In this document: positions 48,115-63,460 of the stretch, piece by piece
Position numbering within the stretch: position 1 is the stretch's first letter
Layout: the number at the start of each line of letters is the position of its first letter
DNA from: Eisenbergiella porci
GTDB lineage: Bacteria > Bacillota > Clostridia > Lachnospirales > Lachnospiraceae
NCBI RefSeq assembly: GCF_009696275.1
Contig: NZ_VUMI01000025.1
Location: forward strand, 1 to 64,000
DNA: 64,000 nt
Reading direction: 5' to 3'
Position numbers and translations under genes: made by a program
The notes under the pieces: generated by a model
Told to the model about the DNA's origin: nothing
What the model saw: the letters and a program-made list of their open reading frames with translations, nothing else
Databases searched by the model: none

Positions 48115-50388
48115 TTACTGCGCTGCATTCAGCTGGTCCAGAAGCCCCGTCAGCTGCTCCAGGGTTACCTTGCCTCCGGCAAAGCTGAGGATTCCGCGGA
48201 TTGGCATATATTTCATCATGGCTTCCATCATCTCGCGGGATATTGCCTCTGCCGCTGCATCGCTTTCATTCTGCTGGCCGCCGATATTAAGCTGCATCAT
48301 GGGAGCAATGATCTGCATGGCTTTTTCGTCCTTCATCAGATCGCCGAAGGTGGTATCCATCGTATAATGTACGGGAACCTTCACTGTGGATTCCACGGTC
48401 ACCGCTGCTTCCAGCTGGATATCCCGGGAGGATTTTCCGATAAGGATACGGAATTCTCCGGTTTCCACATGCCAGTCATGCAGCTGGGTGTTCCAGTAAG
48501 CAAAGGCCCTCTTATCCAGGGTGAAGGTGACAGTCTTTGTCTCTCCGGGCGCAAGCTCTACTTTTTCAAAGCCCTTCAGCTCCTTAACGGGGCGGATCAC
48601 AGTGCTCTCCACGTCGGAAACGTACAGCTGCACCACTTCTTTTCCTGCCATGCCGCCTGTATTGGTCACGTCCACGCTGACCTCCAGGACGTCGGTGTCT
48701 TTTATGTGATCTGCGCTGACCTTCAGGTTGGAATACTCATAACTTGTATAGGAAAGGCCGAAGCCGAAGGGGAAACGGACCTCCATTTTCTTGGTATCAT
48801 AGTAACGGTAGCCTACAAACACGCCTTCTCTGTACTCCACCCTGTCGCCTTCGCCAAGATAGTACAGGTATGACGGATTATCCTCCAGCTTGTAGGGGAA
48901 GCTTTCTGGAAGCTTTGCACTGGGATTCACTTTCCCGAAGAGGATATCCACAGTAGCAGCGCCTACAGCCTGGCCGCCCAGGTAGGCTTCCACAATGCCC
49001 TTTACCTTGTCCGTCCAGGGCATTTCCACGGGGGAGCCATTATGTAATACCACGATGGTATTGGGCTGAACGGCCGCAACGCGTTCAATCAGCTCGTTCT
49101 GGCAGTCCGGCATTCCCATGTGCGCCCTGTCAAAGCCTTCGGATTCAAAGGCATCCGGAAGCCCGGCAAAAATAACCGCAGCCTTCGCTTTGGAGGCATT
49201 GGCAACCGCTTCCGCGATCATGGCCTCATCCACAACATCCGCGTCATCCGCATATCCTTCTGCAAATGTGATATTTCCCCAGTCCTTTACGCAGTCCCAG
49301 GCGCCGGTTACCTTATGGCTGTTGATGTGTGAGCTGCCGCCGCCCTGATAGCGGGGTTTTCTCGCATATTTGCCGATAAAGGCGATATCTTCCTTTTCGG
49401 AAAGCGGAAGAAGATTGTCTTCATTCTTCAGAAGGACAATGGTTTCTTCAGCGACCTTTTTCGCCATTTCATGATCCCTGTCTCTGTCAAATACCGCTGT
49501 TTTATCCCTGTTTTCCTCAAAACGGTATACAATGTTCAGGATACGCTCCACAGCCCTGTCCAGCACCGCTTCATCCAGGCTGCCGTCCTTTACCGCATCC
49601 ACGATCAGCTTATCATTGATGCCGCCGGAGGAGGGCATTTCCAGATCCAGGCCGGCTTCCAGATCGGGCACTCTGTTGTTCACCGCACCCCAGTCACTTA
49701 CCACAAAACCATCAAAGCCCCATTCCCCTCTCAGGATATCGGTGAGCGCTTCTTTATGCTCTGCCGCATAGGTGCCGTTGATTTTGTTGTAGGAGCACAT
49801 AACGGTCCAGGGCTTCTGTTTGCTTACCGCCCCTTCAAAGGCCGCCATATAGATCTCGCGCAGCGTCCTTTCGTCAACCTCGGAGGATGAGGACATCCTG
49901 CGTGTTTCCTGGTTGTTTGCCAGGAAATGCTTGATGCTGGTCCCCACGTTTTTGCTCTGTACGCCCTTGATCAATGCGCCTGCTATCTCGGAAGCCACAA
50001 GGGGATCCTCGGAATAATATTCAAAATTACGTCCGCAGAGAGGAGAACGCTTGATATTCACCGCCGGCCCGAGGATAACGCCTACGCCCTCCGCCTGGCA
50101 TTCTTCTCCCAGTGTCTCTCCCATTCTGGTAATCAGCTCTCTGTTGAAGCTGGCCGCCGTGCCGCAGCCTGCCGGGAAGCACACAGCCTTAATGCTGTCA
50201 TTCATTCCCAGGTGATCCGCCTCCTGGTCCTGCTTTCTTAAGCCGTGAGGGCCGTCGGACACCATCATTGCCGGAATCCCCAGCCGGTCAACGCTTTCCG
50301 TATGCCAGAAATCTGCGCCAGAACACAGGGACGCTTTTTCCTCCAGTGTCATCTGTTTGATTAATTCCTGTAATTTTTCCCTTTCCAT
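48115..50388 (-). CDS. Beta-glucosidase family, GH3
   Basis: A 757-residue family 3 glycoside hydrolase without signal peptide. It shows MTLEEKASLCSGADFW at the start, KHFLANNQETRR, the nucleophile aspartate in FVVSDWGAVN (about 230), the (alpha/beta)6 domain with GGGSSHINSHKVTGAWD and PNTIVVLHNGSPVEMPW, and a C-terminal fibronectin-like domain VSVDVTNTGGMAGKEVVQLYVSD. It removes beta-linked glucose (or xylose/other sugars) from oligosaccharides in the cytoplasm. It is divergent from an AraC regulator with a direct-repeat operator between them. Confidence 0.94.
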   Translation of the reverse strand: MEREKLQELIKQMTLEEKASLCSGADFWHTESVDRLGIPAMMVSDGPHGLRKQDQEADHLGMNDSIKAVCFPAGCGTAASFNRELITRMGETLGEECQAEGVGVILGPAVNIKRSPLCGRNFEYYSEDPLVASEIAGALIKGVQSKNVGTSIKHFLANNQETRRMSSSSEVDERTLREIYMAAFEGAVSKQKPWTVMCSYNKINGTYAAEHKEALTDILRGEWGFDGFVVSDWGAVNNRVPDLEAGLDLEMPSSGGINDKLIVDAVKDGSLDEAVLDRAVERILNIVYRFEENRDKTAVFDRDRDHEMAKKVAEETIVLLKNEDNLLPLSEKEDIAFIGKYARKPRYQGGGSSHINSHKVTGAWDCVKDWGNITFAEGYADDADVVDEAMIAEAVANASKAKAAVIFAGLPDAFESEGFDRAHMGMPDCQNELIERVAAVQPNTIVVLHNGSPVEMPWTDKVKGIVEAYLGGQAVGAATVDILFGKVNPSAKLPESFPYKLEDNPSYLYYLGEGDRVEYREGVFVGYRYYDTKKMEVRFPFGFGLSYTSYEYSNLKVSADHIKDTDVLEVSVDVTNTGGMAGKEVVQLYVSDVESTVIRPVKELKGFEKVELAPGETKTVTFTLDKRAFAYWNTQLHDWHVETGEFRILIGKSSRDIQLEAAVTVESTVKVPVHYTMDTTFGDLMKDEKAMQIIAPMMQLNIGGQQNESDAAAEAISREMMEAMMKYMPIRGILSFAGGKVTLEQLTGLLDQLNAAQ

Positions 50389-50586: not shown

Positions 50587-50629
50587 TAAGAGGTATTTTA
50601 AGGCAATTCTTAACCTTATGGAGGTTTTC

Positions 50630-51592
50630 ATGAAATATTATAATGAAGCGGGGCATTTCCCCGCAAACTGGGGTGAAAAGGAAATCGGTTATCAGGGTAC
50701 CTCCGATTCCTGTCCCGGCAGTTATTTTGACGGCATCCAGGTAAAGGAATCCTTTTCACCGGTTGTTTATACCCATGAAAACATCCAGGTGGAGCCGGAT
50801 ATCCAGGTCCGCTGTTTTTCCTATGAGGATGCCGGAATCCTGGTCCCCCGGCACTGGCACAACAGTCTGGAAATTCTCTATATCGAGGCAGGGGATATGG
50901 ATCTGCTGGTCAATGATCTCTCCATACGCCTGGAAAAAGGGGATTTTGCCATCATCAATTCCAGGGATATCCATGCCACCAGCAGTTCCGAGCATTCCCG
51001 CATAGATGTGCTTCAGATTCCCTATCAGTTCCTGAAAAAACACATTCCGGATTTTGACCGCATCCGCTTTATGAACGGCTCCTGCGGGGAAACGCGCTCC
51101 GATGAAGCCCTTGTCTACTGTCTAAAGGAAATACAGGAGATTTACATCCGTAAGCCCTATTGCTATCAGCTGCATTTCACCAGCCTGCTTTATGAGCTGC
51201 TTTTTCTTTGCGTCAACTGCTTCCGGCTACCCGCGGGAGAGGGCGGAGGCAGCCTGAACGACGAGGAGCGCGCCCGGCTGATCACGGTAATGGATTATGT
51301 AAATGCACACTATCAGGAAAGCATCAGCCTGCGTGACGCCGCCGCCCAGGTGGCTCTGAACCCGGAGTATTTCTGCCGTTTTTTCAAAAAAAATATGGGA
51401 ATGACCTTCCTGGAATTCGTAAACCAGGTTCGTTTTTCCCATATCTGCGAAGACATTCTGCGTACCGATACAAGCATTACCGAGCTTCTGGTGCGCCATG
51501 GCTTTACCAATTATAAATTATTCCGGCGGATGTTTTACGAAAAATACGGCTGCACGCCTTCCGCCAAAAGAAAAGAGACCTCCGGAAAATAA
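50630..51592 (+). CDS. AraC family transcriptional regulator
   Basis: A 320-residue regulator with an N-terminal cupin-type ligand-binding domain (VPRHWHNSLEILYIEAGDMDLLVN, about 68-130) and two C-terminal HTH motifs (ESISLRDAAAQVALNPEYFCRFFKK and TSITELLVRHGFTNYKLFRRMF then CTPSA). Start 50630 has GGAGG six bases upstream; a 50618 start would precede that site. Divergent to GH3, with suitable operator repeats between, it is the probable sugar-responsive activator of the GH3 gene. Confidence 0.93.
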   Translation: MKYYNEAGHFPANWGEKEIGYQGTSDSCPGSYFDGIQVKESFSPVVYTHENIQVEPDIQVRCFSYEDAGILVPRHWHNSLEILYIEAGDMDLLVNDLSIRLEKGDFAIINSRDIHATSSSEHSRIDVLQIPYQFLKKHIPDFDRIRFMNGSCGETRSDEALVYCLKEIQEIYIRKPYCYQLHFTSLLYELLFLCVNCFRLPAGEGGGSLNDEERARLITVMDYVNAHYQESISLRDAAAQVALNPEYFCRFFKKNMGMTFLEFVNQVRFSHICEDILRTDTSITELLVRHGFTNYKLFRRMFYEKYGCTPSAKRKETSGK

Positions 51593-52443: not shown

Positions 52444-55317
52444 CTATTTTGAAAGATTCAGATATTCCGTTATTATTTCTTCAGGCATCAGGCCTCCGCC
52501 TGTGGCCCACACGATGTGGGTCGCCTGGGCGGTCTTTTCATAAAGGCCCTGTTGTTTGAGCCAGGCGCGTCCCTGTTCTCCGGCCAGGATTTTGGGGCCG
52601 CCCAGGCAGGCGCAGGCGGAGGGTTCTATTATCACGCCTTCCGTTTCGTTAAGCCGTTGCATCCATCCGGGAAGGCATTCGTCCTGTACCGTATAAATGC
52701 CGTCCAGAAGCGGACGCATATTGCGTGCCACAAGCTCTGAGGGCCGCCCTACCGCCAGGCCGTCCGCCAGCGTTTTCCCGCTCAGTCCGAAGTCCTGTAC
52801 GCAGACTTGATCCCCTTTGCCGGTTGCCATGCCAAGGAGCATACAGGGGCTTTGCACCGGTTCCGCAAAAAAGCAGTGCACCGCGTCCCCGAATACATAT
52901 TTCAACCCCAGGGTAATGCCGCCCGGCGCGCCTCCCACGCCGCAGGGCAGGTAAACAAACAACGGATGATCACCGTCCACGGGGATCTGTTTATCCGCCA
53001 GCTGTTTTTTCAGCCGGAGTGCGGCGGCGGCATAGCCCAGAAACAGTCTGGAGGAATGTTCGTCATCCACAAAATAACTGTTTTCATCCGCATCGGACAG
53101 CGCCCTGCCCTCTTTGACCGCAGCGCCGTAATCTCCCTCATATTCTTTTACAATAACCCCTTTGCTCCGGAGGAGATCTTTTTTCCACTGCCTGGCGTCC
53201 GAGGACATATGCACCACCGCCCGATAGCCGATGGCTGCGCTCATAATGCCGATGCTCAGTCCCAGGTTTCCTGTAGAGCCCACCTGCATGGTATAGTGTG
53301 AAAAAAAGTCCCTGTGCTTCAAAAGGACGGAATAATCATCCGTTTCCTTCAGAAGCCCGGCCTTCAGGGCGAGCTCCTCCGTGGCTGCAAGTACCTCGTA
53401 AATGCCGCCTCTGGCTTTGACGGATCCGGCCACCGCCAGCTCACTGTCCAGCTTCATGAGCATGCGTCCATGTCTGAGAGGCTCCCCCTCTCCCGCCCCG
53501 CAGCCGTCCCAGAGGCTTTCCGCCATGGCCGGGATATCCTGCAGCGGGGATTCGATGATTCCTCCGGTTTTCTGAAGCTCCGGGAAGCAGCCTTCCAGAA
53601 ATGGGGCGAACCTGAGCAGGCGCGCCTGGGCCTCTTCTATATCCGCCATCGTAAAGTCCAGGCTTTCCTTCGCTTTTGCGAAAGAAACACGGTGGGGATT
53701 GATCCAGAAGACCTCCCTCTGCGCTGTCACCCGGGCGATGATATCCGATGCTTCCTCCATTGCCGCATCCGGCACTGCCTGTGGCTGCGGACCCACCGTT
53801 TCCTTTGTGGAAACGGCGTGATCCAGGGAGCGCTGCAGGCGGAATACCTCATCAGGGAAGCGGTTCAGCGTTTCCTCCTCTGTCAGCGGCTCCGTATGGA
53901 TCCGGCCATCCCAGACCATTTTTTCCCGCTCGTCTCCCAGCGGCTTCCATTCCGGGATGCCCTCCCAGTTGGGATCTCCGGTTTCGAAAAAGCGGACGTA
54001 GCTTTCATAGATAATTTCCGCGGTCTTTCTACGTTCCTCCAGGGCAATTCCGGGGAATAAAGCATCATCCCGCCAGGCGCCGTCAAATGCGGCGGACTGA
54101 TCCAGCACATGGGACGCCGTACCGAAATCCATGCTGTAATACCAGACCTGGCTTCCGTTTTTCGCCAGAAGTTCCGCCAGGCGCCTGCTGTAGGTACGGT
54201 ACATGTAGTCGGAAAGAAGCTGTTCCCATTTCAGCGCCCTGCGTAAAGCTAAACCACTTTCTTCCTGCCGCTCCCCGGCGTCGAACTCCTCGAATTCCTC
54301 TATGGCAATCTCCGCGTTCTGCCCAAACAGGGCCCTGGCAATGGCAGGGCAATGGGCCGTAAAATCAGGATCGCCCAGGCGGCGGAATACCATTTCATGG
54401 CGGCAGCTGCCCACAATTGCCTTGCCCGACCAATGCCTGCCGCTTCTCAGCGCTTCCCTCCAGTCCATGGGAACCGTAATTCCATCGGCAACCGGGCCGA
54501 AGGTACAAGTATTTCCCGGATTATCCACAAGCCGCTCCTGTACTGCCAGCAGGTTATCCACATCCATGGTCAGGATATCCTCCGGCCTTTTAAGCCCTGC
54601 CAGCGAGAAAAAGGAATCCGCAACCGCAGCAGCTGTTTCTTCTTCACGGATACACTGGTAAGCGCCGCTGGCCATCAATACCTGGCTGCAACAGGTTTTC
54701 AGCTCCGGCCTCAGCAGAAGCGCGCCAAGAGTCTTGGCTCCTGCGGATTCGCCAAACACGGTAATCCTGCTGCGGTCGCCTCCAAACTCCCCGATATTAT
54801 CATATATCCAGCGCAGGGCCGCCAGCTGATCCAGGGTCCCGTTGTTTCCGGTGCCCCGGTATTCCTCACCCAGCGCAGTTCCCAGATAAAGATAACCCAA
54901 TACGCCCAGGCGGTAATTTATGGAAACATAAATAAAGCTATGATCGCGTATGATCTGTTTTCCGCTCCGGTCACGGTTGCTTCCGTTCTGGAATGCGCCG
55001 CCGTGAATATAGACCGCCACAGGCAGGCCCCTTCCTTCCCGGCGCGCCTCCAGGGCGGCCCGCGCCGAAACATAAATATTCAGATTCAGACAGTCCTCCC
55101 CGTATTCCTTCCGCCCTTCCAAACCGGCCTGCGTTTCTTGCGCAGGATGGGACTGGACCGCTTTTTTACCAAACGCGTCAGCCTGAAACATCCCTTCCCA
55201 GTTTATTTCCCGGGGCGCCTGAAACCGCTCCGCCCGGGCATAGGGAATCCCCAGAAAATTCTGAAGTCCGTTTTCCTCAAATCCTTCCACATAACCGCCT
55301 GTTGTTTTGATTCTCAT
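52444..55317 (-). CDS. Carboxylesterase-D-serine dehydratase fusion protein
   Basis: A single 957-residue frame with two complete enzymes. Residues 1 to about 495 are a type-B carboxylesterase: oxyanion segment YIHGGAFQNG (105-109), nucleophile serine in FGESAGA (S191), probable acid E308 (SCRHEMVF) and histidine H403 (ASHVLDQS). Residues about 525-957 are a DsdA-type D-serine ammonia-lyase: ITAQ-like start REVFWINPHR, RFAPFL, then GSVKARGGIYEVL with the PLP lysine K634, GSTGNLGLSIG (680-690), YLPCGVGG and THIVWATGGGLMPEE. The linker is about 25 residues. D-serine is converted to pyruvate and ammonia; the esterase substrate is unknown. The ATG overlaps the lpd stop by four bases, so it is the last gene of the glycine cleavage operon. 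No signal peptide is present, so it is cytoplasmic. I know of no described enzyme of this form. Confidence 0.9.
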   Translation of the reverse strand: MRIKTTGGYVEGFEENGLQNFLGIPYARAERFQAPREINWEGMFQADAFGKKAVQSHPAQETQAGLEGRKEYGEDCLNLNIYVSARAALEARREGRGLPVAVYIHGGAFQNGSNRDRSGKQIIRDHSFIYVSINYRLGVLGYLYLGTALGEEYRGTGNNGTLDQLAALRWIYDNIGEFGGDRSRITVFGESAGAKTLGALLLRPELKTCCSQVLMASGAYQCIREEETAAAVADSFFSLAGLKRPEDILTMDVDNLLAVQERLVDNPGNTCTFGPVADGITVPMDWREALRSGRHWSGKAIVGSCRHEMVFRRLGDPDFTAHCPAIARALFGQNAEIAIEEFEEFDAGERQEESGLALRRALKWEQLLSDYMYRTYSRRLAELLAKNGSQVWYYSMDFGTASHVLDQSAAFDGAWRDDALFPGIALEERRKTAEIIYESYVRFFETGDPNWEGIPEWKPLGDEREKMVWDGRIHTEPLTEEETLNRFPDEVFRLQRSLDHAVSTKETVGPQPQAVPDAAMEEASDIIARVTAQREVFWINPHRVSFAKAKESLDFTMADIEEAQARLLRFAPFLEGCFPELQKTGGIIESPLQDIPAMAESLWDGCGAGEGEPLRHGRMLMKLDSELAVAGSVKARGGIYEVLAATEELALKAGLLKETDDYSVLLKHRDFFSHYTMQVGSTGNLGLSIGIMSAAIGYRAVVHMSSDARQWKKDLLRSKGVIVKEYEGDYGAAVKEGRALSDADENSYFVDDEHSSRLFLGYAAAALRLKKQLADKQIPVDGDHPLFVYLPCGVGGAPGGITLGLKYVFGDAVHCFFAEPVQSPCMLLGMATGKGDQVCVQDFGLSGKTLADGLAVGRPSELVARNMRPLLDGIYTVQDECLPGWMQRLNETEGVIIEPSACACLGGPKILAGEQGRAWLKQQGLYEKTAQATHIVWATGGGLMPEEIITEYLNLSK

Positions 55318-56705
55318 GTTCTCTCCTGTTGCAGCAACCGGGCCGCTTCACCGATGCCCTCCCCAAAGGTGGGATGGGGATGGATGACTCCGGCCAGCTC
55401 CCCTGCGGTAATTCCGCGGCTGATTGCCAGCGCAAGCTCTCCAATCATATCGGTGGCGCGGGCGCACATCAGCTGCGCTCCCACAATTTTTTCATTATCC
55501 TCCCGTGCCACAAGCCTGATAAAACCTCTCTCCTGGCCGGAAAGCACGAATTTTCCGTTCAGGGACATTATGTACTTCGCTGTTTTTACCGGGACGCCTG
55601 AAGCCTTTGCTTCCTCACAGGTAAGGCCCGCACAGGCAATTTCCGGATCTGTATATACGCAGGAAGGAATGACCCTTCTGTCTATGGAAGGTTCCCTGCC
55701 TTCCATATGATCCAGCGCAAGCAGCCCCTCCGCAGTGGCAGCGTGAGCAAGCTGTATGCCCCCTGTCACGTCTCCCACGGCGTATATGCCGGGAATCCGG
55801 GTCCGGTAATTCTCGTCCACAGGAATGCGTCCACGCTCCGTCCCGCTTGGCCCCAGCAGCTGCCCTGACCAGACGGACTCCCCGTCCGCCCTGCGGCCCA
55901 CCGCTGCCAGAAGCCCTTTTGCGGAAGCCGAAAACGCCTGTCCTTTTTCTTCATAATAACATACAAAGCCTCCCTCTTGCATTCTTTCCACACGGGTTAC
56001 GGAAGCTTTTGTATGGATATCCACACCTCTTTTTTTCAGTATCATTTTCAGATTCTGGGAAATCTCCCGATCCATGCCGGGCAAAATCCGATCCATGGCC
56101 TCCAGTACGGTGACCTTTTTCCCCAGGTCAGAATAGAAGGAGGCAAATTCCATGCCGATCACGCCTCCGCCTATAATAATAAGGCTGTCGTATGGTTTCT
56201 GTCTTGCAAGAAGGCCGGCGCTGTCCTCCACACCGGGCAGATCGATTCCCGGAATCGGCGGAACAGCGGTTTTAGCCCCGGCCGCGATAAGGATGCGGGG
56301 CGCTGTAAGAAGAATTTCCTCTTTTCCTGTCGTTACCAGCACCTTTTCTTTTTCTAGGATCCGGCCGGTACCGGTAAAAAGAGTCACACCCTTTTTCTGA
56401 AACTGCACGGCAATTCCCTCCCGCAGGGAGGAGATTACCTCAAGACGGCGTTCCTGCAGCCGGGCCATATCCACATGAGCCTCCGACACGCTCAGCCCCT
56501 CCGCCTGCGCTTCCTGCAGCCTGCGGTACAAACCTGAAGCATGAAGCAATGTCTTTGTGGGAATACAGCCGCGATTCAGACAGGTTCCTCCCAGCTCATC
56601 TTTTTCTATGACAGCCACCCTGCGGCCGCCCTCCGCCGCACGAAGCGCCGCCGGATAGCCTCCCGGCCCTGCGCCGATAACAATCAAATCAAATTCCTGT
56701 GCCAT
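55314..56705 (-). CDS. lpdA: Dihydrolipoyl dehydrogenase
   Basis: A 463-residue flavoprotein that reoxidises dihydrolipoyl groups (here of GcvH) with NAD+. It has the FAD loop VIGAGPGGYPAALRAAEGG, redox disulfide GGTCLNRGCIPTKT, the NAD loop IIGGGVIGMEFASF, the second FAD loop IYAVGDVTGG, and the C-terminal active-site histidine-glutamate pair in VIHPHPTFGEGIGEA. Start is preceded by GGGAGGTAA. It lies 30 bases after lplA in the glycine cleavage operon. Confidence 0.96.
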   Translation of the reverse strand: MAQEFDLIVIGAGPGGYPAALRAAEGGRRVAVIEKDELGGTCLNRGCIPTKTLLHASGLYRRLQEAQAEGLSVSEAHVDMARLQERRLEVISSLREGIAVQFQKKGVTLFTGTGRILEKEKVLVTTGKEEILLTAPRILIAAGAKTAVPPIPGIDLPGVEDSAGLLARQKPYDSLIIIGGGVIGMEFASFYSDLGKKVTVLEAMDRILPGMDREISQNLKMILKKRGVDIHTKASVTRVERMQEGGFVCYYEEKGQAFSASAKGLLAAVGRRADGESVWSGQLLGPSGTERGRIPVDENYRTRIPGIYAVGDVTGGIQLAHAATAEGLLALDHMEGREPSIDRRVIPSCVYTDPEIACAGLTCEEAKASGVPVKTAKYIMSLNGKFVLSGQERGFIRLVAREDNEKIVGAQLMCARATDMIGELALAISRGITAGELAGVIHPHPTFGEGIGEAARLLQQERT

Positions 56706-56735: not shown

Positions 56736-57731
56736 TTATAAAAGCAGGCCCAGCAGTCTTTCCAAATCATCCTTCATGGATGCCTGCAGCCTGTTTTGCG
56801 CCGGTATCTGCCGGAAGGCCTCCGCAACCGCAGCCTTCGTCAGCTGTGTTCCGGGAAGCGCCTCCGTAAGCGCAGTCACCAGCTGTGTATCCAACGCATC
56901 CGTATGGAGGATCAATTCACTAATCCTCCCCCCATCCGCCTTCAGCGCAAGCTGTACCTCTCCCCAGGAAAAACGGCGGGAAATTTCATCGCTGAAGGGA
57001 ATCTGTCTGCCATACTTCCATTCCCAGGAAGCAAAGGCAGCCGCCCGGCTGCGGATTTCACCACCCTCCAGCCGTTCTCCCGGAAACGGCTCCACCGGCA
57101 GCCCGTAGCGCCCGGCGAAGGCCTCCTTCAGCACAACAGCCATCCTTTCCTTCGTAAGCTCCGGCATCAGATCACACAGATTGATGACCCGGCTGCGCAC
57201 GGACTCCACCCCTTTGGATTCCAGCTTCTGCCTGGAAACATGCAGATATTTTTCCATCTGCTCCTGATCCGCGTGCATGAGTATCGTACCATGATGGTAA
57301 CAGCAGTCTCCCGTAGAATAATACGCATTTCCTGAAAATTTACATCCGTTGATGGTGATATCGTTACGGCCGCTTTTACAGGCGGAAAGCCCCAGGCGTT
57401 TCACCGCCTCCAGGACGACATCCGTCTGTTTATCCACATCATAATTGCACCTGCGCGCCAGAAAAGTGAAATTCAAGTTCCCCAAATCATGAAATACGGC
57501 GCCGCCGCCGGAAAGACGGCGGGCAAGATACCCGCCGTCCGCCTCCAGCTCCTTCGTCCTGCATTCCTTCCAGGCATTCTGGTTCCGTCCGATGACCACC
57601 GTCCGTTCATTCTGCCACAAATAAAGAATACATTCGTCCTCTCCCGCCTGGTACATCAGATATTCTTCCAGCCCCATATTCTGATACGGATTAAAACAGC
57701 CTGATTCTATGGTATATATTTTTTTTATCAT
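56736..57731 (-). CDS. lplA: Lipoate-protein ligase
   Basis: A 331-residue ligase that activates lipoate with ATP and attaches it to target lysines, here presumably GcvH K64. Motifs are LARRLSGGGAVFHDLGNLNFTF, the catalytic-lysine region INGCKFSGNAYY and YHHGTILMHAD. The C-terminal about 75 residues are the small accessory domain. It overlaps gcvPB by four bases, which makes coordinated lipoylation of the H protein likely. Confidence 0.94.
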   Translation of the reverse strand: MIKKIYTIESGCFNPYQNMGLEEYLMYQAGEDECILYLWQNERTVVIGRNQNAWKECRTKELEADGGYLARRLSGGGAVFHDLGNLNFTFLARRCNYDVDKQTDVVLEAVKRLGLSACKSGRNDITINGCKFSGNAYYSTGDCCYHHGTILMHADQEQMEKYLHVSRQKLESKGVESVRSRVINLCDLMPELTKERMAVVLKEAFAGRYGLPVEPFPGERLEGGEIRSRAAAFASWEWKYGRQIPFSDEISRRFSWGEVQLALKADGGRISELILHTDALDTQLVTALTEALPGTQLTKAAVAEAFRQIPAQNRLQASMKDDLERLLGLLL

Positions 57732-59170
57732 AATCCATAATGCAGTTTGGGATTCCTGGCCGCCTGCACCTCATCCAGCCGTGAAATTTCCGTCTTATGG
57801 GGTGCGCTGCGTATCCACTCCGGATCCTCCTGCGCCTTTCTGTGAATTTCCATAAAAGCCGAAATCAGCTCCTCCAGATTCTCCGGGGATTCCGTTTCCG
57901 TAGGCTCAACCATCAACGCTTCATGCACGATGAGAGGGAAATACATGGTAGGCGGATGGATCCCGTAATCAAGCAGCGCCTTTGCAATGTCCATGGCGCT
58001 GACCTGCAGCTCCTCCTTTTCCGGCTGAAGGGTCATGACAAACTCATGCATGCAGGTTTCCTGATAGGCCATGTGATACGCCTCCGACAGCCTGACACGC
58101 AGATAATTGGCATTCAGCACCGCCATATGGGCGGCATCCCTGATCCCCTCGGCCCCCAGTGTAAGCGCGTAACACAACGCCTTCACCACCACGAGGAAAT
58201 TGCCGTAAAACGCCCTTACCATGCCAATGGATTTTTCATAATCCGCTCTGTAAAAAACGCCGTTTTCTTCCCGGATTTCCTTACCCGGCAGAAATTTTCC
58301 CAGAAAAGCCTTACAGCCCACCGGACCGCTTCCCGGCCCTCCGCCTCCGTGGGGCGTGGAAAAGGTCTTATGCAGGTTCAGATGCACCGTATCAAAGCCC
58401 ATATCTCCCGGCCTTGCCACGCCCATCACCGCATTCAGGTTGGCGCCGTCATAATAGCACAGGCCGCCGGACTCATGGACAATGCGGGTAATTTCCAGGA
58501 TATTTTTGTCAAAAAGCCCTACAGTATTGGGATTGGTCAGCATCAGCCCAGCCGTATCCTCTCCCACCGCCGCCTTCAGCGCCTCCAAATCCACACAGCC
58601 TTCCTTCGTGGAAGGGATATTGATGACCTGATATCCTGCCATCGTGGCGCTGGCAGGATTGGTGCCGTGGGCGGAATCCGGAACGATGATTTTTGTCCGT
58701 TTTACGTCCCCCCGGCTTTCATGGTAGGCCCGGATGAGAAGAAGGCCGGTAAACTCCCCATGCGCCCCGGCCGCCGGCTGGAAGGTCATGGCATCCATTC
58801 CCGTGATTTCACAGAAAACCCGCTCTGCATCGTGAAGGACATGCAGACAGCCCTGCACCGTCTCCTCCGGCTGCAGGGGATGAATCCGCGTGAAGCCGGG
58901 AAGAGAAGCCATTTCGTCATTCAGCTTGGGGTTATATTTCATGGTACAGGAGCCCAGGGGATAGGAACCGTCATTCACTCCGTGGGTGGCATTGGCCAGC
59001 GCGGTATAATGCCGGCTGATGTCGTTTTCCGATACCTGGGGAAGACGCAGCGGACTTTTCCTTCCGGCCGCGGAAAGCGGCTTTTCCCCGGTTCCGATTA
59101 CCGGCACATCACATTCCGGCAGTATACTGCAGCGCCTGCCCGGAACACTTCGTTCAAAAATCAGTTTCAT
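57728..59170 (-). CDS. gcvPB: Glycine dehydrogenase (decarboxylating) subunit 2
   Basis: A 480-residue subunit with the PLP lysine in HLNLHKTFSTPHGGGGPGSG. It forms with GcvPA the P-protein, which decarboxylates glycine and passes the methylamine to lipoyl-GcvH. It starts KLIFERSVPGRRC and has ANATHGVNDGSYPLGSCTMKYNPK, typical of subunit 2. Start 59170 is selected because its ATG overlaps the gcvPA stop (ATGA) and GGAGGTG lies eight bases upstream; 59179 is an alternative. Confidence 0.96.
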   Translation of the reverse strand: MKLIFERSVPGRRCSILPECDVPVIGTGEKPLSAAGRKSPLRLPQVSENDISRHYTALANATHGVNDGSYPLGSCTMKYNPKLNDEMASLPGFTRIHPLQPEETVQGCLHVLHDAERVFCEITGMDAMTFQPAAGAHGEFTGLLLIRAYHESRGDVKRTKIIVPDSAHGTNPASATMAGYQVINIPSTKEGCVDLEALKAAVGEDTAGLMLTNPNTVGLFDKNILEITRIVHESGGLCYYDGANLNAVMGVARPGDMGFDTVHLNLHKTFSTPHGGGGPGSGPVGCKAFLGKFLPGKEIREENGVFYRADYEKSIGMVRAFYGNFLVVVKALCYALTLGAEGIRDAAHMAVLNANYLRVRLSEAYHMAYQETCMHEFVMTLQPEKEELQVSAMDIAKALLDYGIHPPTMYFPLIVHEALMVEPTETESPENLEELISAFMEIHRKAQEDPEWIRSAPHKTEISRLDEVQAARNPKLHYGL

Positions 59171-60486
59171 TGTCCGCACACCTCCTTCACCAGACTTACC
59201 AGCTCATCCATTTCTTCTCTCGAATTCTTTTCCGTGGCGCACCACAGCAGGTTCCCGTCCGGCAGCAGAAGCCCGCCCAGAAAACCCTTTCCCTCCAGCG
59301 CTCCCAGAAGCCTTTTCCCATCCACCGGGGAAGCCGTAACAAACTCATGGAAAAATTCCTTTTTATAAACCGGAGGCAGCCCGGCTTTTTCCAGCTCCTT
59401 CTGCAGATAATGCGCCTTGGAGGCGCACAGGACAGCCGTCTGTGTAATCCCCTCCGGCCCCATGGCGGACAGATACACGGACGCGATCAGAGCACAGAGC
59501 GCCTCATTGGAACAGATATTGCTGCCTGCTTTTTCCCTGCGGATGTGCTGCTCCCTTGCCTGAAGCGTGAGCACAAAGCCTCTGTTCCCCCTGGAATCCA
59601 CTGTTTCCCCCACAATACGGCCCGGCAGCTTACGCATCATATCCCTGGAAGCTGCCATAAAGCCCAGATAAGGGCCGCCGAAGGATAAAGGCAGGCCCAG
59701 CGGCTGCCCTTCCCCCACCGCCACATCGGCCCCGCATTCCCCGGGTGTCTCCACAATAGCCAGCGCAATGGGATTGCAGCCCATGATGAGCTTCCCACCC
59801 CTTTCATGGACGGCCTCGGCGCATGCCCTCCCGTCCTCCAGGATTCCATAAAAATTAGGCTGCTGCACATAAAAACACGCCACCGTGTCATCCAGCATGC
59901 TTTTCAGAGCCTCCAAATCCGTGCTTCCGTCCCTGGCCGGCACCATTTCCACTACAGCCTGCCTGCCGTGGCAATAGGTTTTTATCACCTCCGTCACCTG
60001 AGGATTGGTGGTTTCGGAAACCAGCACGCGGGTGCGTTTTCTTTCCCTGCACATGAAAACACCCTCTGCCGCAGCGGACGCGCCGTCATAAACGGAAGCG
60101 TTGGCAGCGTCCAGGCCTGTCAGTTCACAGATCATCGTCTGATATTCGAAAATAGACTGAAGCAGCCCCTGGCTGATTTCCGCCTGATACGGCGTATAGG
60201 CGGTGACAAATTCCTCCTTCGAAACAACCTCCTTTACAATAGACGGAATATAATGATCATAAGCGCCTGCGCCCCTGAAAATATGGCGGAAGATACGGTT
60301 TTCCTCCGCATAGTCTTCCATTTTCCGGGCAGCTCCCAGCTCTGACAGCCCTTTAGGCAGCTGCAGTTCCCCCTTCAACTTTACTTCCTCAGGCAGCGCC
60401 GCAAACAGCTCCTCCGTGGAAGTAAGGCCCACAATTTCCAGCATCCTCTGTCTTTGTTCTTCTGTTGTCGGTATGTAGGATCCCAT
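59167..60486 (-). CDS. gcvPA: Glycine dehydrogenase (decarboxylating) subunit 1
   Basis: A 439-residue subunit 1 of the P-protein. Conserved segments are SYIPTTEEQRQRMLEIVG, FRGAGAYDHYIPSIV, SKEEFVTAYTPYQAEISQGLLQ, YDGASAAAEGV and GGPYLGFMA. It lacks the PLP lysine, which is in subunit 2, as in all two-subunit P-proteins. Start 60486 has AAAGGGGG upstream; 60513 is an alternative that would overlap the gcvH stop. Confidence 0.95.
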   Translation of the reverse strand: MGSYIPTTEEQRQRMLEIVGLTSTEELFAALPEEVKLKGELQLPKGLSELGAARKMEDYAEENRIFRHIFRGAGAYDHYIPSIVKEVVSKEEFVTAYTPYQAEISQGLLQSIFEYQTMICELTGLDAANASVYDGASAAAEGVFMCRERKRTRVLVSETTNPQVTEVIKTYCHGRQAVVEMVPARDGSTDLEALKSMLDDTVACFYVQQPNFYGILEDGRACAEAVHERGGKLIMGCNPIALAIVETPGECGADVAVGEGQPLGLPLSFGGPYLGFMAASRDMMRKLPGRIVGETVDSRGNRGFVLTLQAREQHIRREKAGSNICSNEALCALIASVYLSAMGPEGITQTAVLCASKAHYLQKELEKAGLPPVYKKEFFHEFVTASPVDGKRLLGALEGKGFLGGLLLPDGNLLWCATEKNSREEMDELVSLVKEVCGQ

Positions 60487-60512
60487 TCCCTTTTCCCCCT
60501 TTCCCGGCCGCA

Positions 60513-60896
60513 TTACTGCTTCCGGGTTTCCACATACACTTCATAATCCGCAGCGTCCAGCAGCTCCTCCTGATCCGTAATATCCTTTACCCTGATCATC
60601 CAGGCTTCATTGGCATCCGTATTAATCAGTTCGGGACTGTCCAGCAGCTCTTCATTGATTTCCTCCACAATTCCGGTCACCGGGGAATACACATCCGATA
60701 CCGCTTTTACGGACTCCACATCCCCGAAGGGCTCCCCGGCGGTTACCTCATCCCCTTCCTCAGGCAGATTCACGAATACCAGGTCTCCCAGCTCCTTCTG
60801 CGCATAATCGGTAAGGCCGATCCGCGCGCTGCCGTCTTCTTCAAATAAAACCCATTCATGAGATTTGGAATACTTGTAATTATCCGGATAATTCAT
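60513..60896 (-). CDS. gcvH: Glycine cleavage system H protein
   Basis: A 127-residue lipoyl carrier. The lipoylated lysine is K64 in [14 protein letters not shown]. Start and end follow the family: [25 protein letters not shown]. The lipoyl group would be attached by LplA encoded two genes downstream. The 88-base gap before it holds an imperfect repeat copy (ATAACTGT at 60963-60970). Confidence 0.97.
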
Positions 60897-60984: not shown

Positions 60985-62070
60985 TTACCTTTTATAAAAA
61001 GGAAGCTCCACGATTTCCGCTTCCACGCGGCGGCCCCGCACCTCGGCCTCCACCCGCCTTCCTGGCACTGCCTCCTCCGCCTGAAGCAGCGCCATAGCCA
61101 CCGGATATCCCAGGTAAGGCGCATGGGTTCCGGAAGTCGTAACCCCGATTTTCCCATCCCCCGCATATACTCCGGCCTGCTCCCTGATAATTCCTCTTCC
61201 CGTCACTTTCAGGCCAACCCTTTTTCTTGACGGGGTTCCCTGTTTCTCAAGAGCATCCCTGCCGATAAAATTCTTCTTCATTTTTACCGCAAAAGAAAGC
61301 CCTGACTCCAGAGGAGAAATCGTATCATCCATTTCATGACCATATAGCGGCATGGCGGCCTCCAGCCGGAGCGTATCCCGCGCCCCCAGCCCGCAGGGAA
61401 TCAGCCCCTCCTCCCTTCCGGCCTCCATCAACGCTTCCCACAACGCCGGCGCGTCCCCGGCCGCCATATACAACTCAAACCCATCCTCGCCGGTGTAACC
61501 GGTCCTGGAGATAACGCACCGGATACCCGCCGCCTCCCCCTCAAAAATACAGCTATAATACTTCTCAGGAATAACCTCATCCCCTGCAACCCTGCCAAGA
61601 ATCCCCCGAGCCTTCGGCCCCTGAAGCGCTATCTGCCCCACATTATCCGAAATATCCCGGAATTTGGCGCCGCCCCTCTGATGCTCCAGCATCCACGCAA
61701 AATCCTTATCCTTATTTGCCGCGTTCACCACAAAGAAATAATGATTATCCCTGACCTTATAAACAATCAGATCATCCACCACCCCGCCGTTTTCATTACA
61801 CATGGGACTATACCTGGCCTGACCGTCACGCATATTCGTAAAATCATTCGTCAGCAGATAATTCAGATTCTCCAACGCCCCCTCCCCTTCACAAAGTATT
61901 TCCCCCATATGGGATACATCAAAAAGCCCGCAGTCCCGTCTCACCGCCATATGTTCCTGAATCACCCCGTACCCCTCATACTGCACCGGCAAAAGATACC
62001 CTGCAAACGGCACCATCTTCCCGCCATACCTCACATGAACATCATACAACGACGTCCTCCGCTCCTCCAT
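60985..62070 (-). CDS. gcvT: Aminomethyltransferase, glycine cleavage T protein
   Basis: A 361-residue enzyme that releases ammonia from aminomethyl-lipoyl-GcvH and makes 5,10-methylene-tetrahydrofolate. Visible are KMVPFAGYLLPVQYEG, RRDCGLFDVSHMGE, the folate-binding SRTGYTGEDGFELY and GLGARDTLRLEAAMPLYGHE. Start ATG 62070 with AAGGAG is preferred; the open frame extends to 62142 through the riboswitch terminator region without homology. It is the first gene of the operon behind the glycine riboswitch. Confidence 0.97.
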   Translation of the reverse strand: MEERRTSLYDVHVRYGGKMVPFAGYLLPVQYEGYGVIQEHMAVRRDCGLFDVSHMGEILCEGEGALENLNYLLTNDFTNMRDGQARYSPMCNENGGVVDDLIVYKVRDNHYFFVVNAANKDKDFAWMLEHQRGGAKFRDISDNVGQIALQGPKARGILGRVAGDEVIPEKYYSCIFEGEAAGIRCVISRTGYTGEDGFELYMAAGDAPALWEALMEAGREEGLIPCGLGARDTLRLEAAMPLYGHEMDDTISPLESGLSFAVKMKKNFIGRDALEKQGTPSRKRVGLKVTGRGIIREQAGVYAGDGKIGVTTSGTHAPYLGYPVAMALLQAEEAVPGRRVEAEVRGRRVEAEIVELPFYKR

Positions 62071-62130
62071 TACCCCCAGCTCCTTCCTTTTTAAAAACAA
62101 AATTCCCATCCACAAAAAATATTTCCGCAC

Positions 62131-62166
62131 GCAAAAAGGCATACGGCGCTAACAGCCATATGCCTT
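62131..62166 (-). terminator. Riboswitch expression-platform terminator
   Basis: On the minus strand AAGGCATATGGC pairs with GCCGTATGCCTT around a seven-base loop and is followed by T5. It lies directly between the glycine aptamers and gcvT, so glycine binding presumably prevents its formation. Confidence 0.8.
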
Positions 62167-62345
62167 CCCTGTCTTCGTACCTGAAAGATTACCCCTTACC
62201 CTACAAGAGGCTGCCTCGTCGGTGGCAACAGTGCACTAACCTACTGCACCTCACCTTTCCAGAGCTTCGTCCAAATCCGGTCCTTTTGCCTGAGAGTTTA
62301 TGCCCCTTCGGCGCAATTAAGTTGTCTCTCCCGAATCCTTCTCCC
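62167..62345 (-). promoter_or_regulatory. Tandem glycine riboswitch
   Basis: Minus strand: the first aptamer has GGGAGAGACAAC, CGCCGAAGGGGCAUAAAC, CUCUCAGGCAAAAGGACCGG and GGACGAAGCUCUGGAAAGG, the standard glycine-I core. After a short linker the second aptamer has CACCGACGAGGCAGCC, AAUCUUUCAGGUACGAAGA and CAGGG. The two lie in tandem, as in most glycine riboswitches, with a terminator after them. Glycine should turn on the operon gcvT to the esterase/D-serine dehydratase gene. Confidence 0.93.
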
Positions 62346-62397
62346 GAAAATATTTACAGAAAGACACCACCTCCGATGCCCTCCCCTTTGTATGTCC

Positions 62398-62610: not shown

Positions 62611-62925
62611 GCCTTCCCGTTATAGTTCTCCCCCGCACATTCCTGCCCGCCGCTCTGTTACGCACCGCTTTCTGGCCGCTCCCCGCGTCTGTCCGGCCGG
62701 GTATTGTTTTCTGTAAGGGTCGTTTAAAAACGCCGGTACTAACGCCGCGTATTGTGCGGCGTTAGTACCGCTGCGTTTTTAACCGAGCGAAAGCAAGACG
62801 ACTTTCAGTCGTCTGCCCACACAGAAAATAATACCCGGCCGGACAGACGCGGGGAGCGGCCAGAAAGCGGTGCGTAACAGAACGGCGGGCAGGAATCCCG
62901 CGGGGGAGAACTATAACGGGAAGGC
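62611..62925. repeat. Long inverted repeat element (about 105-bp arms)
   Basis: The left arm 62611-62714 (CCTTCCCGTTATAGTTCTC to TATTGTTTTCTGT) and right arm 62819-62925 (ACAGAAAATAATACCCGG to GAACTATAACGGGAAGG) are reverse complements apart from a handful of differences. The central about 104 bases hold a second hairpin (CGGTACTAACGCCGC / GCGGCGTTAGTACCG around GTATTGT, 62734-62770) and a third (AGACGACT-TTC-AGTCGTCT). No open frame of sense is present. The size and structure fit a MITE-like element or a large RNA fold. It ends seven bases before the trmL stop codon. Confidence 0.85.
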
Positions 62926-62931
62926 GTCCCA

Positions 62932-63423
62932 CTACCTCCAATGGAGTCTGTGGAGGTCGCCTTCGAGGAGCATTCCTTCGAAACTGTTCTGGCGCAGGGC
63001 CTCATAAAGCACAATCGCAACGGAATTGCTTAAATTCAGGGAACGGATTTTATCCAGCATGGGGATACGGATACAGGTATCTTCATTTTCCACTAGGATT
63101 TCTTCCGGGATTCCCGCGCTTTCCTTGCCGAACATAATATAGTCGTCCGGGCCGAAAGCAACGTCAGTGTATACATGCTTTGCCTTGGTAGTGGCCATCC
63201 ATATTTTCGCCCTGGGATTTTTCTCCAGGAAGTCTTCATAATTGATATAGCGCCGCACGTCCAGATCCTTCCAGTAATCCATGCCCGCCCTTTTGATTTC
63301 CTTTTCGTTCAGACGGAAGCCAAGCGGCTCTATGAGATGCAGGACGGAACCCGTGGCTACGCAGGTCCTGCCGATATTTCCGGTATTAGCCGGGATCTCC
63401 GGCTGATGCAGTACAATATTCAT
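62932..63423 (-). CDS. trmL: tRNA (cytidine(34)-2'-O)-methyltransferase
   Basis: A 163-residue SPOUT methyltransferase that methylates the wobble nucleotide of tRNA-Leu. The fold's conserved parts are HQPEIPANTGNIGRTCVATG, the SAM knot FGKESAGIPEEIL and RIPMLDKIRSLNLSNSVAIVLYEALRQ. Normal length. It has a GGGGAGAATTG site. The stop codon lies seven bases from the edge of the long inverted repeat. Confidence 0.96.
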   Translation of the reverse strand: MNIVLHQPEIPANTGNIGRTCVATGSVLHLIEPLGFRLNEKEIKRAGMDYWKDLDVRRYINYEDFLEKNPRAKIWMATTKAKHVYTDVAFGPDDYIMFGKESAGIPEEILVENEDTCIRIPMLDKIRSLNLSNSVAIVLYEALRQNSFEGMLLEGDLHRLHWR

Positions 63424-63460
63424 TTCAATTCTCCCCGATGTCTTTCGTTTTATTTTTACA

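Follow-up and report, generated by a model that had tools for sequence, protein, structure and literature searches.

The fusion gene and its domains

The window, i.e., the whole 64,000-nucleotide stretch of Eisenbergiella porci DNA analyzed here, carries on its minus strand (52444..55317) a gene whose 957-residue product joins a type-B carboxylesterase to a D-serine dehydratase (DsdA, or D-serine ammonia-lyase). The first-pass annotation, which gave no strand, had described a single uninterrupted frame, and the gene indeed runs from ATG to TAG with 0 internal stops. A Pfam scan of the protein matches COesterase over residues 3-467 (E 1.5e-67) and PALP over residues 618-908 (E 1.6e-34). The N-terminal part belongs to the type-B carboxylesterases, as PF00135 scores 229.2 bits against a gathering cut-off of 27, with positions 5-493 of the 515 in the profile covered. 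For D-serine ammonia-lyase, two NCBIfam models match: NF002823 reaches 603.2 bits (cut-off 246) over residues 520-954 (profile positions 9-438 of 444), and TIGR02035 566.2 bits (cut-off 368.25) over residues 526-953 (profile positions 7-431 of 431). With these scores above the cut-offs over whole domains, both domains are complete, as had been proposed.

The esterase domain (53848..55317, minus strand) spans residues 1-490 and contains the oxyanion motif HGG (105-107), S191, E308, and H403. A linker (53761..53847, minus strand; about residues 491-519) leads to the DsdA domain (52447..53760, minus strand; residues 520-957), with the PLP lysine K634, GSTGNLG from residue 680, and GVGG from residue 793. 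Alignment places S191, E308, H403, and K634 exactly where they had been assigned from the sequence alone. H105, G106, G107, S191, E308, and H403 are invariant across 13 aligned esterase rows; K634, within GSVKARGG, and GSTGNLG are present in the three fusions described below and invariant across 6 aligned DsdA rows. We take the Ser-Glu-His triad and the HGG oxyanion loop to be catalytic in the esterase half, and K634 and GSTGNLG to be the PLP lysine and the phosphate-binding loop of the DsdA half. Catalytic residues are, then, kept in both halves.

The closest known system for the DsdA half is solved DsdA (3SS7, 3SS9, 3R0X, 3R0Z, 6AA9). In the best solved match, residues 16-438 of the 442 of 3SS7 align with residues 527-953 of the fusion (E 9.3e-138), and the PLP lysine and glycine-rich loops of the solved enzymes are kept. 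Three PDB DsdA sequences (442-448 aa) consist of DsdA alone, whereas in the fusion this domain comes after a 490-residue esterase. The closest bacterial type-B carboxylesterases are Est50 (2OGS/2OGT) and the p-nitrobenzyl esterase 1QE3, with which fusion residues 4-476 and 4-483 align near full length (E 1.6e-50, for the best solved esterase match, Est50 2OGS, and 4.3e-42). They share the triad and the HGG motif with the fusion, but their chains (489-498 aa) are esterases alone, to which the fusion adds a C-terminal DsdA. A structure model of the whole fusion protein, built on an alignment with five DsdA rows, has pLDDT values that stay under 50 from residue 1 to 537 and is uninformative as to how the domains pack. 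Viral contigs, scanned as a source of further esterase rows, yielded 0.

The glycine-riboswitch operon

The fusion is the last gene of an operon in the order riboswitch-gcvT-H-PA-PB-lplA-lpdA, whose genes, all on the minus strand and identified by ORF, Pfam, and NCBIfam analysis, are gcvT (60985..62142), gcvH (60513..60896), gcvPA (59167..60513), gcvPB (57728..59179), lplA (lipoate-protein ligase, 56736..57731), and lpdA (dihydrolipoyl dehydrogenase, 55314..56705). They are tightly packed, the widest gap being 88 bases (gcvT-gcvH). The four-base overlap of lpdA with the fusion start, described in the first-pass annotation, holds in the window but is replaced by gaps of 21 and 24 bases in the two fused relatives. 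Upstream of gcvT and on the same strand lies a glycine riboswitch (62165..62347), made up of a strong aptamer matched by RF00504 (62268-62343, 58.1 bits) and a weaker second half, the two-part model RF03166 matching 62165-62347 at 65 bits, below its gathering score of 110. The RF00504 match and the gene order bear out the proposed place of the fusion as the final gene of a gcv operon headed by a glycine riboswitch. A terminator-like hairpin (62734..62770, minus strand; 15 pairs counted on the minus strand and 17 on the plus strand), between a trmL-like gene and the riboswitch, sets the gcv unit apart from that preceding gene. Glycine riboswitches ahead of gcv genes are described, in passages of PMC11477304 dealing with other bacteria, as behaving as ON switches.

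Twenty gcv loci of other family members were drawn from 51 other gcvPB-bearing genomes, and 16 of them have the same gcvT-H-PA-PB-lplA-lpdA order; three have no lplA match, and the remaining one breaks off with its contig before reaching lpdA. The riboswitch was found in four of the five loci scanned for it. No DsdA or esterase match of at least 35% identity was present in the stretches fetched around these 20 loci, and the idea that dsdA habitually travels with gcv operons was, therefore, rejected. The reverse search led to the same result: no best match to gcv, lplA, or lpdA genes lay within four ORFs of dsdA in 45 loci, some of them cut by contig ends. These 45 loci come from 44 family genomes, out of 48 listed, the fusion's own locus being counted apart.

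Distribution of the fusion

The full fusion was found in three of 13 genomes of the genus, namely that of the window, G012, and G005, with about 70% identity and in the same operon. The G012 protein is 70% identical over residues 1-954; that of G005, a single-contig genome of 7.3 Mb, is 73% identical over residues 91-955, and a separate match within that open frame covers residues 1-90 at 54%. The first-pass annotation had seen no sign of a chance deletion fusion and, as the frame is open across both domains in two further species, chance or sequencing error is excluded. All three fusions stand behind gcvT, gcvH, gcvPA, gcvPB, lplA, and lpdA in that order, both relatives have a glycine riboswitch before gcvT, and gcvPB is confined to these same three among the 13 genomes. 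Directly behind the fusion gene and on its strand, both relatives carry a GGDEF protein gene with solute-binding domains (L067:4678-7203 (-), L068:11873-14368 (+)); in the window, the interval from the fusion to an AraC-family gene showed no gene of this kind.

Samples of genomes from the family (397), the class (391), and the phylum (378) were searched, two to four candidates per genome being scored in the wider searches; the matches listed, which for the family reach far below the rank of the fusions, include no further protein with similarity to both halves. A search of 195 relatives returned the same three fusions only. Across the family, class, phylum, and relatives, the three fusions apart, the open frames that contain the listed DsdA matches do not exceed 808 residues, and those of the DsdA-metallohydrolase fusions discussed below are the longest. 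In the genomes sampled for phylogenetic spread and genomic context, as suggested at the outset, the architecture is limited to one clade of one genus and stands behind the gcv operon in each case.

Regarding prior descriptions, no carboxylesterase-D-serine dehydratase fusion was found in open-access full text, among the matches listed, which agrees, within that literature, with the earlier remark that no enzyme of this form was known. PMC10673610 and PMC12838360 name D-serine ammonia-lyase only in passing, in the parts consulted.

The free-esterase locus and the probable origin of the fusion

In eight of the 13 genomes of the genus, the esterase occurs alone, at the same locus and with 56-60% identity, and gcvPB and dsdA are absent; two other genomes have no close esterase ortholog. 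The free esterase is flanked in all eight loci by a trmL-like gene and, on the opposite side, by AraC and GH3 genes. In the window, the corresponding genes are a TrmL-like SpoU methylase (62932..63435, minus strand), which immediately precedes the free esterase in 8/8 sister loci, an AraC-family regulator (50618..51592, plus strand), matched beside the free esterase in 8/8, two of these matches (in G008 and G003) being short, and a GH3 glycosidase (48115..50388, minus strand), conserved in 8/8 and taken here as a proxy for species relationships. No DsdA, gcvPB, or lpdA match was found in any of the eight stretches. The esterase is a local resident of this locus. In two of the sister species, a sulfatase gene follows the free esterase on the same strand (L073:11192-12643 (+), L075:11377-12798 (+)).

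The window has the same flanks, with the gcv operon separating the trmL-like gene from the esterase, and dsdA behind the esterase. In the fused relatives, stretches reaching about 1 to 1.6 kb past the riboswitch did not show the trmL-like gene just upstream of the operon, so this insertion picture is drawn from the window. Free esterases of the genus stop at about window residue 494; the fusion, thus, places two entire proteins almost directly one after the other. Outside the fusions, a DsdA query returned only PLP-enzyme matches of 25-29% identity in the genus. Recent horizontal arrival readable from base composition was considered and dropped: GC3 is 0.58-0.65 over the gcv, lplA, and lpdA genes, the esterase half, and the DsdA half, resembling the flanks (0.60-0.63), and gives no such signal.

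A quick tree groups the DsdA domains of the three fusions in a single clade (support 100) that falls within the DsdA of this family; its sister is loosely placed (support 90). The three fused esterases also form one clade (99/97), in a tree whose outgroup is long-branched and in which the order of three groups within the genus is unsettled. The tree of the neighboring GH3 gene, rooted at midpoint, unites the same three species (100/99) and puts G006 and G009, two species with a free esterase, next to them as sisters (100/100). Judging from these trees, a single gain of gcv and dsdA would be the simplest account, repeated loss being the other possible one.

Selection on the two halves and the linker

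Pairwise NG86 comparisons of the three fusions gave dN/dS ratios of 0.144-0.152 for the esterase half, 0.073-0.127 for the DsdA half, and 0.28-0.50 for the linker region, all to be read as rough values, as dS reaches up to 2.6 and is saturated in several cases. The linker also contains an indel: it is about 25 residues long in the window, as first estimated, and 14-20 residues shorter, depending on the alignment, in the fused relatives. The three proteins have remained fused while diverging to dS values close to 1 or higher. This pattern points to purifying selection on both halves, which both look functional, and the linker looks like a weakly constrained tether.

Other hydrolases near or fused to DsdA

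Another genus of the same family has DsdA joined to a C-terminal metallohydrolase, in all three genomes concerned (G044, G361, and G1224). The corresponding genes include L077:8389-10797 (+) and L078:6216-8540 (-), assigned to the CehA/McbA type by NCBIfam domain matches that, at 75.5 and 69.5 bits, stay below the cut-off of 80. Like the fusion studied here, they combine DsdA with a hydrolase; unlike it, they use another type of hydrolase, placed C-terminally rather than N-terminally, and they do not adjoin a gcv operon. One such fusion (L062) falls in another DsdA clade of the tree. In genome G248, a separate CehA/McbA-type gene (L152:6005-6970 (+)) lies directly before dsdA, in the order opposite to that of the fusion. 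That DsdA has been fused to a hydrolase twice independently within one family may reflect a functional link; three CehA cases among the 45 dsdA loci fall short of a pattern.

Two other kinds of dsdA neighbor were considered and rejected. A carboxylesterase is not a habitual one: a weak esterase-profile match occurs within four ORFs in only two of the 45 loci (304 and 307 aa), and the one of these that was scanned, at L169, proved to be an Abhydrolase_3 protein. Nor are the recurrent neighbors deacylases; in the one or two members scanned of each cluster, they are PTS enzyme I, a xanthine/uracil-type permease, a GntP permease, an alanine symporter, and regulators instead.

Possible roles of the fused enzyme

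The probable reading is that of a bifunctional fusion made once and maintained in a single clade, in which the esterase keeps a role of its own and DsdA has come under glycine control. The gcv operon and a dsdA gene would have come to surround the resident esterase gene, whose stop codon was then lost; we infer the direction of this change, gain over repeated loss, and the exact joining event. Both halves are most likely active, judging from their conservation. The DsdA half is predicted to turn D-serine, and perhaps D-threonine, into pyruvate and ammonia. As the last gene of the riboswitch transcript, the fusion would be made when glycine is high, and D-serine, which may enter by the glycine transporter, could be cleared or burnt along with glycine. 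The ON-switch and shared-transporter points are drawn from other bacteria and would have to apply in this organism as well. The esterase half, a predicted ester hydrolase, may keep an older, unrelated role, with the linker serving as a loose tether for 1:1 co-expression rather than as a channel; the two parts probably work side by side. Two observations run against this explanation: the fused state has persisted to dS values close to 1 or higher, although nothing would oblige a neutral tether to last so long, and the independent DsdA-hydrolase fusion of the second genus could mean a functional link.

A coupled enzyme, in which D-serine (or D-threonine) released by the esterase from an ester is then deaminated by DsdA, channeled or not, appears unlikely. 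It would account for the long retention of the fusion, for the joining of DsdA to a second, unrelated hydrolase in the three genomes of another genus, and for the separate CehA/McbA-type neighbor at L152. Nevertheless, the esterase stands alone in eight of 13 genomes, those devoid of gcvPB and dsdA, which implies a job independent of DsdA; no full-length carboxylesterase lies within four ORFs of dsdA in the 45 fetched loci; the linker is under weak constraint; and nothing hints at the esterase substrate. The specific proposal of the first-pass annotation, a substrate channel acting on a serine ester, found no support and is weakened by these free esterases and by a linker that varies. A broader form of the idea is hardly more probable: the joining of DsdA to unrelated hydrolases on at least two occasions in this family could point to a pathway so far undescribed, one that cuts D-serine or D-threonine out of an ester, amide, or phosphodiester and deaminates it in place, with glycine as the switch in the present case.

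It is rather improbable that one half is a degenerate or structural appendage, the fusion merely placing the other half under the operon. The loose linker, the restriction to one clade, and the slightly lower constraint on the esterase half by NG86 would fit, but the catalytic residues are kept in 3/3 fusions and dN/dS is about 0.15 or less in both halves. Finally, an assembly or sequencing artefact joining two genes is barely conceivable and found no support: estimated contamination is 4.92, 10, and 13% in the three genomes, yet the flanks are conserved, and a comparison across species, in line with the strain comparison proposed as a refuting check, revealed the same fusion with differing sequence in each, including the one assembled as a single contig, which refutes it.

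Each of the two enzymes is of a well-known kind; their joined arrangement, of which the papers searched gave no description, is kept in three species. If it is true that the halves cooperate, these bacteria would have a hidden source of D-serine; if they do not, the gene offers a clean case of a fusion kept for co-expression, and would put D-serine breakdown under glycine control. Carboxylesterase-like matches also occur in 1310-residue frames of two class genomes (G553:C7:87487-88887 and G597:C2:27943-29346), perhaps another multidomain esterase.
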